Source: Lachnospiraceae bacterium
GTDB lineage: Bacteria; Bacillota; Clostridia; Lachnospirales; Lachnospiraceae
Assembly (NCBI GenBank): GCA_017411305.1
Contig: JAFQQI010000048.1
Location: forward strand, 1 to 64,000
Direction: 5' to 3'
DNA: 64,000 nt
Part shown: positions 59,536 to 60,685 of the stretch, piece after piece
How positions within the stretch are numbered: the stretch's first letter is position 1
How the letters are laid out: each line of letters starts with the position of its first letter
The notes under the pieces: generated by a model
Database searches by the model: none
Told to the model about the DNA's origin: nothing
Seen by the model: the letters and a program-made list of their open reading frames with translations, nothing else
Translations under genes and position numbers: made by a program

Positions 59536-60009
59536 ATGGCAGAAGTTAAGAAAGCGACAGCGAAGGTAATTGCTAAGAAAGCACCTGTTAAGGAAGAAGC
59601 TAAAAAGGTAGAAGAAGTGAAGGCAGAAGTTAAGGAAGCGCCTAAGGCAGAAGCTAAGAAGGCACCTGCGAAGAAGGCCGCTGCACCTAAGAAGGAAGCA
59701 GCTCCTAAGAAAGAAACCGCTAAGAAGGCACCTGCGAAGAAAGCAGAAGCTAAGCCTGCAGCAGAAAAGAAAGCACCTGCAAAGAAGGCAGCTGCTAAGA
59801 AGACTGAGGTTAAGGAATCCGTTAACTTCCAGTTCAGCGGTAAGTCATACACTCCCGATGATCTGTTAAAGATTTGTAAGGATGTATGGATGTATGACTT
59901 AAACGGTAAGGCAGAAGACTTCAAGTCTGTGGAATTATATGTTAAGCCCGAAGAGAACACTACATACTATGTAATCAACGGCAACATCACAGGAAGCTTC
60001 TTTATCTAA
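59536..60009 (+). CDS. Lys/Ala/Pro-rich histone H1-like protein with C-terminal DUF6465-type domain
   Basis: The 157-residue protein has an N-terminal 95 residues made of Lys, Ala, Glu and Pro in irregular repeats (KKAPAKKAAA, KKEAAPKKETAKKAP). This resembles eukaryotic histone H1 tails and bacterial nucleoid proteins such as Hc1/AlgP. The last 60 residues form a compact domain (NFQFSGKSYTPDDLLKICKDVWMYDLNG ... VELYVKPEENTTYYVINGNITGSF) that I recall as DUF6465 of Lachnospiraceae. A role in DNA or RNA binding is likely from the charge but unproven. A strong promoter and terminator make it monocistronic. The start is the ATG after AAAGGAG. Confidence 0.82.
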   Translation: MAEVKKATAKVIAKKAPVKEEAKKVEEVKAEVKEAPKAEAKKAPAKKAAAPKKEAAPKKETAKKAPAKKAEAKPAAEKKAPAKKAAAKKTEVKESVNFQFSGKSYTPDDLLKICKDVWMYDLNGKAEDFKSVELYVKPEENTTYYVINGNITGSFFI

Positions 60010-60035: not shown

Positions 60036-60064
60036 AGCGGACATCTTCGGATGCCCGTTTTTTT
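60036..60064 (+). terminator. Terminator after the DUF6465 gene
   Basis: A stem of about ten pairs, with one A-C mismatch, closes on a TTCG tetraloop (60046-60049) and is followed by seven T. Confidence 0.85.
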
Positions 60065-60070
60065 GTGCTG

Positions 60071-60532
60071 TAAATTTTAAAGTGTTTTGCATAGAGCATA
60101 GCCAAATAATTGTTTATTTCAATGCTAATATCTTATTTCGGAATTTTTTGAATTCGCTCTTTTATATGCTGATTAACTGCCCGTCGTAAAACTCAAAGCC
60201 GTACAATTGTAACGAGTGCCAAAAGCCTTTTAAAACTTTTTGTAAAAATTCAATCAGCGGATTTTGAAAAATGTATAGCGCATTCCAACCTGTTTGAAGC
60301 GAAGCAAGTTTTGGAATGCGCTATTTATTACATCTTTAAAATCCGCTGATTAGAATTTTCTAAAAAGTTTTATAGGCTTTGCACTGTTACAATGGCGGCT
60401 TTTCAGACAGTTACTTCCGGGCAGTGCATTTATAAAAGAGCGTTTCTAAAAAATTCAGCGAAATAAGATATAAAGCCATTGAAATAAACATATTACATGG
60501 CTATATTTCCATGCAAAATCATTTGAAATTTA
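60071..60532. repeat. Very long imperfect inverted repeat (about 220-bp arms)
   Basis: The left arm (60071-60288) and right arm (60311-60532) are reverse complements over their full length at roughly three quarters identity by eye, around a 22-base centre. Conserved blocks include TTGGAATGCGCTAT, AAAATCCGCTGATT, ATAAAAGAGCG, GAAATAAGATAT and ATTGAAATAAACA. No reading frame of note lies in it. It lies between a terminator and the hrcA promoter. It could be a fold-back miniature transposable element or the template of a long hairpin RNA. Confidence 0.85.
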
Positions 60533-60579
60533 TTTTTGGGTTTTTAGAATTTTTTAATAATTAATTTCTGGGATATCTG

Positions 60580-60649
60580 TTGACAATAAATAGGGATAGT
60601 GCTATTTTATGTATGGAAGGTGTTAGCACTCCATCGAATCGAGTGCTAA
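60580..60649 (+). promoter_or_regulatory. hrcA promoter and CIRCE operator
   Basis: TTGACA (60580-60585), 17 bases and TATTTT (60603-60608) are followed by a perfect CIRCE element, TTAGCACTC (60623-60631), nine bases, GAGTGCTAA (60641-60649). HrcA binds CIRCE and represses the heat-shock operon when free GroEL is plentiful. Confidence 0.95.
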
Positions 60650-60685
60650 CAAAACAAGCAAAAGAGTCGGAAAGGAGCGGTGCTT

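Follow-up and report, generated by a model that had tools for sequence, protein, structure and literature searches.

A long palindromic repeat upstream of hrcA belongs to a dispersed, fold-back-like family in Lachnospiraceae

The inverted repeat before hrcA and its copies

A Lachnospiraceae genome (GCA_017411305.1) carries, within the 64,000-nucleotide stretch of contig JAFQQI010000048.1 analysed here (the window), a very long palindrome directly before the heat-shock gene hrcA, which raises the question of whether it is part of that promoter, a structured RNA or a mobile DNA. Self-alignment placed the inverted repeat over exactly 60071-60532 with 362 of 462 positions complementary, and the fold of 60050-60550 reached -209 kcal/mol compared to -102 +/- 6.7 kcal/mol for shuffled sequences (z -16, equalled by 0 of 100 shuffles). 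The giant imperfect inverted repeat of the preliminary description is therefore real, and its placement between a terminator and the hrcA promoter also held (Table 1). It was rightly called gene-free, with no plausible gene inside and a sole overlapping frame of at least 50 aa that has just 55 aa. The termini are A/T-rich (TAAATTT / AAATTTA) and no target duplication was demonstrable at the ends of the window copy. The inverted repeat before hrcA is one we take to be of the CIRCE type. The upstream gene (59537-60009), directly before the element and hrcA, encodes a long lysine/alanine/proline-rich part with AKKAPAKKA repeats that resembles a histone-H1-type tail.

Table 1. Features of the palindromic element and its flanks (window positions)
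Feature	Position	Strand	Basis or remark
Whole palindromic element	60071..60532	+	Strand with conserved apex TGTTTGAAGCGAAGCAAGTT; self-alignment, fold, own-genome copies
Outer arm block	60111-60124/60477-60490		Repeat finder
Outer arm block	60128-60140/60459-60471		Repeat finder
Outer arm block	60141-60166/60431-60456		Repeat finder
Stem 2, left strand	60231..60268	+	Inverted repeat I1 (repeat finder)
Stem 2, right strand	60335..60372	+	Inverted repeat I1 (repeat finder)
Central 141-nt core common to genus (model R1)	60232..60373	+	Stem 1, asymmetric internal loop, bulged stem 2
Stem 1, left strand	60270..60288	+	Inverted repeat I3 (repeat finder)
Stem 1, right strand	60311..60329	+	Inverted repeat I3 (repeat finder)
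Conserved apical loop TGTTTGAAGCGAAGCAAGTT	60291..60310	+	Sequence, apex table of 61 genus copies, alignment A4
Mini-hairpin GCGAAGC within apical loop	60299-60305	+	
Terminator-like hairpin of upstream gene (flank, outside element)	60038..60057	.	Listed on - by scan; T-run after it on +
hrcA promoter-like site (flank, outside element)	60580..60608	+	TTGACA at 60580, spacer 17, TATTTT
Inverted repeat before hrcA, presumably CIRCE-type (flank, outside element)	60621..60651	+	Inverted repeat I8 (repeat finder)

A DNA search located nine element places in the own genome including the window copy, the eight others at E 1e-21 or better, with full copies of about 460-500 bp. R1, a covariance model built from 28 copies of the central 141 nt, likewise found nine places there and scored 148.9 bits on the + strand and 64.0 bits on the - strand at the window core. 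It matched 12 of the 37 genus genomes, one of which (G033) had 22 distinct places, and 13 of the 397 genomes searched in the family (own genome counted in both). A second model, covering the 50-nt apex (R2, built from 45 copies), matched 40 of the 397 family genomes (35 of 334 genera) and, across the phylum, 13 of 398, the own genome counted each time; its training set consists in part of R1 family matches, and those genomes match R2 by construction. Up to 15 candidates per genome were scored in these two R2 searches, some genomes reaching 15, and copies there number at least those listed; a looser R2 search of eight such genomes gave 64 matches in G146 and 58 in G420. Nearly all uncut copies examined were again long hairpins, with exceptions such as L309, which is paired near the apex only. 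The median span was 465 bp (10-90% range 287-509) in 53 of the 61 genus copies, five being left out for want of a neighbouring gene call on one side and three (L256, L273, L274) as truncated. Four contigs of G026 start or stop inside an element copy, at or near the apical part (L035, L036, L037, L038); the hairpin thus seems to disrupt short-read assembly, and copy numbers from metagenome-assembled genomes are probably too low.

On balance we lean towards reading the palindrome as a copy of a mobile element of fold-back, MITE-like type, about 460-500 bp long, which is non-coding and dispersed and was likely spread as folded DNA. This reading builds on the dispersed copies, the empty sites, the precise ends seen in one relative, the compensatory change, a conserved apex, strand symmetry and opposite orientation at matching sites. 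Its range takes in part of the Lachnospiraceae and, by the apex, several further families of the phylum. We considered and rejected carriage by viruses or plasmids: two apex patterns gave 63 and 3 viral-contig stretches, most of them not such hairpins, and neither plasmid nor phage records held a match to the window copy, nor plasmid records one to a G146 element. The 63 stretches (L133-L195) contain the 19-base apex pattern TGTYYGAGCGAAGCGAGTT, mostly without a matching hairpin, and many are near-identical to one another.

Insertion sites, orientation and ends

The site before hrcA was filled in three species (the own genome, G007 and G026) and contiguous, that is empty, in seven (G017, G003, G012, G022, G015, G033, G011), with four further genomes undecidable. 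In the six empty species that were aligned, a short terminator-like stretch occupies the site, and the promoter and the CIRCE-type repeat are conserved. Three filled and seven empty sites mark the element as an insertion and not as part of the heat-shock promoter, a role that is unsupported since the promoter region is kept in species without it; the suggested effect on the heat-shock operon likewise finds no support in the six aligned species. By comparison of these sites, the element would have been inserted between the upstream gene end and hrcA in the lineage of the three species. The G007 copy at hrcA (L119) lacks the apical part and forms a shorter hairpin, as after an internal deletion.

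Two other sites gave the same kind of contrast. The L006 site is filled in the own genome and contiguous in G007, G005 and G015, and the stem of the short two-way terminator found there in G007 corresponds to the outermost arm of the own-genome element. At L008 the own genome, G007 and, with a different sequence type, G012 carry the element, and seven others are contiguous. None of the empty sites compared revealed a clean target duplication. Arms grown outward from the flanking genes, considered for L004, were dropped as an explanation because convergent sites keep a nearly constant gene-to-gene distance. At three sites the element lies in opposite orientation between colinear flanks: at hrcA (+ in the window, - in L244), at L231/L242 and at L257/L268. 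Inversion in place explains this best, and independent insertion may be an alternative.

Precise ends were found in G146, where the elements are bounded by a common 22-bp terminal inverted repeat (CCCTTTTCGGATTTGTGTTCCC at one end, its reverse complement at the other). The 17-base centre of this repeat had 68 matches with at most two mismatches, compared to 2 for a reversed control, and occurs once in G444, a genome of the same genus as G146. Ten bounded units measured 80, 238-240 (five), 353, 482-484 (two, the longest symmetric units) and 561 bp. Only two of the ten share three flanking bases and the rest have no visible target duplication, so a TA target duplication finds no support. Terminal-repeat units without the apex also exist in G146 (L405, L413, L417), down to 80 bp (L405), and the apex is therefore not needed for a copy to be retained. 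In L385 and L386, also of G146, the outer and inner parts are mutually inverted. Terminal repeats are less clear in G024 and G033, where several copies carry A- and T-runs at their base, and no shared ends were seen among copies of the window's clade. The precise ends and empty sites that had been anticipated for a transposable element were thus both found, the empty sites at hrcA, L006 and L008, the ends in G146 but not in the window's clade.

A source of transposition functions was sought in two ways. Eight G146 stretches around otherwise unexplained terminal repeats contained no transposase among their frames when inspected by eye, and ten proteins from these stretches had no match to a transposase family in Pfam. 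The Y1 transposase (PF01797) is unsupported as a partner, being no commoner in carriers (6 of 12 genomes with the element) than in the remaining genomes of the genus (15 of 25). The proposal of a fold-back MITE largely stands, with dispersed copies, empty sites and precise ends in G146 on its side; a TA target duplication is unsupported, and the G146 stretches examined revealed no parent transposon.

Conserved apex and paired arms

Four alignments chosen by hand for spread (A1, 28 copies; A2, 23; A3, 48; A4, 45) were used to compare the parts of the fold; one alignment candidate (L082) had no apex motif. The apex consists of TGTYYGA, a mini-stem, a short loop and RAGTT, mostly as TGTYYGA-[GC-GNA-GC]-RAGTT. 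Among the genus copies, 49 of 61 have GC(GNA)GC, 6 have GC(GNNA)GC and 6 have other forms. In other genera the two sides of the mini-stem change in step (AC..GT, GAC..GTC, GCC..GGC), and the loop between them is mostly unaltered. Of the 11 columns of A4 with an identity of 90% or more, 10 fall within the apical loop, conserved on one strand only, and the eleventh is the first base on the 3' side of stem 1, whose pairs vary on both sides (14 of 14). Part of this apparent conservation comes from the search, because R1 and R2 were trained on the apex, and over all columns of A2 unpaired positions were not more conserved than paired ones (0.758 vs 0.798). Asymmetric internal loops recur down the arms when inspected by eye. 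GNA and GNNA loops closed by at least two G-C pairs are described, in passages of PMC4686876, as extraordinarily stable DNA mini-hairpins, with a Tm of 78 C for GCGAAGC. Energy software rated the strand opposite the apex motif as more stable by 0.6-1.0 kcal/mol in three test pieces.

The arms have changed while remaining paired. In A1, 97.3% of cells were paired compared to 82.1% in shuffles, falling to 31-56% when the structure was slid along the alignment as a control, and 32 of 45 pairs had changed on both sides; RNAalifold reported double-sided changes in 69 of 102 pairs in A2. Both the homologues and the compensatory change, whose absence the preliminary description would have taken as signs of a chance or decayed structure, are thus present. 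Twelve copy pairs, most at matching sites, were compared directly. In the six at 89-98% identity, single-sided losses (G.T 17, A.C 20, other 10) stood against 10 Watson-Crick doubles, and in the six at 74-84% identity there were 91 doubles and 74 single-sided losses (G.T 18, A.C 11, other 45). Copies within one genome share stem variants that are absent from matching-site copies of other species, as judged by eye.

An alternative is that the element is an ordinary MITE, derived by deletion from an insertion sequence and mobilised as double-stranded DNA by way of its terminal repeats, with a passive core and arms matched by template switching. The shared 22-bp ends and the G146 units of 80 to 561 bp, some without an apex, would suit such an origin, as would the opposite orientation at matching sites; template switching is described in parts of PMC8604942 and PMC8794818 as homogenising arms and inverting the DNA between them. 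However, the apex and internal loops recur across genera despite differing arms, although they would be expected to disappear from a passive core, and template switching should remove asymmetric loops; acting alone it should erase the internal loops, so that some selection on the fold is likely. Double changes were adjacent 1.5-2.1 times as often as expected (identity classes 0.70-0.85) and single-sided changes 2.0-2.4 times; being no more clustered than single-sided changes, the doubles have nothing specific to multi-base template switching. With no parent transposon seen in the G146 stretches examined and no constant target duplication in the ten G146 units, we regard an ordinary MITE as a possible but unlikely account.

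A structured RNA, either a 3' UTR element or a small RNA and perhaps an RNase III substrate, selected for pairing and spread as copies, would also explain strong covariation, the position after genes and an apex conserved on one strand only. When a palindrome undergoes strong compensatory change, this is usually taken to prove an RNA. The mismatches gave no G-U surplus in the apex orientation (G.T 194 vs A.C 221 in 29 copies; 264 vs 285 in 53) or in gene sense (99 vs 89 in 19 tandem copies), although the test is weak because 74 predicted ordinary terminators, used as the control, themselves reached only 33 vs 21. Seven divergent copies were kept out of the gene-sense set, and L236, first called convergent, entered it as tandem according to the gene map. 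No bias was found relative to the replication strand (29 vs 32 against GC skew, 61 copies) or to transcription, with both orientations present at tandem sites (7 vs 13), counts that are inflated by non-independent copies at matching sites. The absence of both a preferred strand and a G-U surplus indicates pairing kept strand-symmetrically, which fits DNA, or RNA made from both strands. Only one of the six four-base apex loops fits GNRA, and a search of Rfam 15 with the window region and 13 related loci gave no hits at the element other than microRNA-precursor models that scored below cut-off. Of the long hairpin RNA first suggested, the compensatory change survives; the symmetry between strands points to DNA, which makes the family a test case for the usual reading of such change, and we consider an RNA element improbable.

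Returning to the mobile palindrome spread as folded DNA, its identity would lie in the folded shape, namely two arms of roughly 230 bp each, asymmetric internal loops that recur along them, and the conserved apex. Spread most probably occurs through the apex strand folded as single-stranded or cruciform DNA, with a recombinase or transposase encoded elsewhere acting on it. Complementarity of the arms is maintained by repeated pair-restoring changes, which could come from selection on the fold, arm-to-arm copying in replication, or both. We infer a folded DNA substrate, an enzyme acting on it and a process that keeps the arms alike, the first because the apex is of a DNA type, pairing is strand-symmetric, and the apex and loops recur while the stems drift. 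Much more tentatively, the family might represent a class of bacterial mobile DNA, found in several families within a single phylum and recognised through the shape that it takes when folded as a single strand: a GNA/GNNA apex mini-hairpin, a ladder of conserved internal loops, free-drifting paired arms and ends that vary by lineage.

Gene context and comparison with known repeats

The 61 genus copies comprised 29 in convergent, 20 in tandem and 7 in divergent gene gaps, with 5 unclassified, and background gaps called with the same simple gene finder (n=759) comprised 98 convergent, 553 tandem and 108 divergent. The resulting convergent enrichment (29 of 56 classified copies compared to 98 of 759 gaps) rests on inflated counts, since matching sites in different species contribute non-independent copies. 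This enrichment could suggest a two-way terminator or a gene-end boundary element, for example a supercoil absorber between convergent genes as proposed for REP/BIME, to which the stem of an empty species' two-way terminator that is now the outermost arm at the L006 site and the A-run and T-run at the base of several G024/G033 copies would be suited. Most copies of the window's clade, however, lack a T-run beyond the base, the hrcA site has a terminator-like hairpin distinct from the element, and 25 of the 37 genus genomes have no match. In G146 there was no gene-end preference, the nearest gene end being a 3' end for only 16 of 29 terminal repeats, so the convergent position may reflect tolerance. 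A terminator or boundary function is accordingly very doubtful. A chance or decayed palindrome without a family, to which only the mismatches between the arms would point, is refuted by the z of -16, the copies and the compensatory change.

The element works like MITEs, REPINs or ERIC and is filed as a variant of such known repeats. Bacterial MITEs are described in part of PMC3733652 as non-coding, 70-300 bp long and bounded by terminal repeats of 15-30 bp. Like MITEs and fold-back elements, the element is non-coding and dispersed, has lineage-specific insertions and, in G146, has a 22-bp terminal repeat and internal-deletion forms. Unlike them it is larger (about 460-500 bp), is paired over nearly its full length and has a core that recurs across genera with different ends, with neither a parent transposon nor a constant target duplication found. 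It also resembles REP/REPIN/BIME with TnpA-REP in being palindromic, multi-copy and mostly between convergent or tandem genes, and in the proposed handling of a folded single strand. It is set apart by size, REP sequences, which carry a GTAG or CGTC tag, being 20-40 bp long compared to a median of 465 bp here, and by the missing link to a Y1 transposase. The stems also lack the frequent G-T pairs that the same passages of PMC3733652 attribute to REP stems. ERIC/IRU and bcr1 are likewise intergenic repeats that fold into one long stem-loop, but at 127 bp (ERIC) and 147 bp (bcr1) they are smaller and occur in other hosts; this comparison draws on size and fold as given in parts of PMC2267715.

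In its variable paired arms and conserved unpaired bases, the element may be likened to the integron attC site. Such sites, of about 57-141 bp and part of gene cassettes, combine variable paired arms with conserved unpaired bases and are recognised in the form of folded single strands of DNA. Should the fold be the substrate here too, the family could lead to a new recombinase that reads DNA hairpins.

The copies add a large repeat family to gut Lachnospiraceae and their relatives, for which no name was found in Rfam and neither a name nor a description in the open-access literature searched. They also offer natural material on the fate of long palindromes in bacterial chromosomes: how they survive, remain matched and invert. 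Beside one copy, at a distance of about 1.3 kb, a Clostridiales-1 RNA (RF01699; 95.4 bits, above cut-off) was detected at L305:2909-3050.
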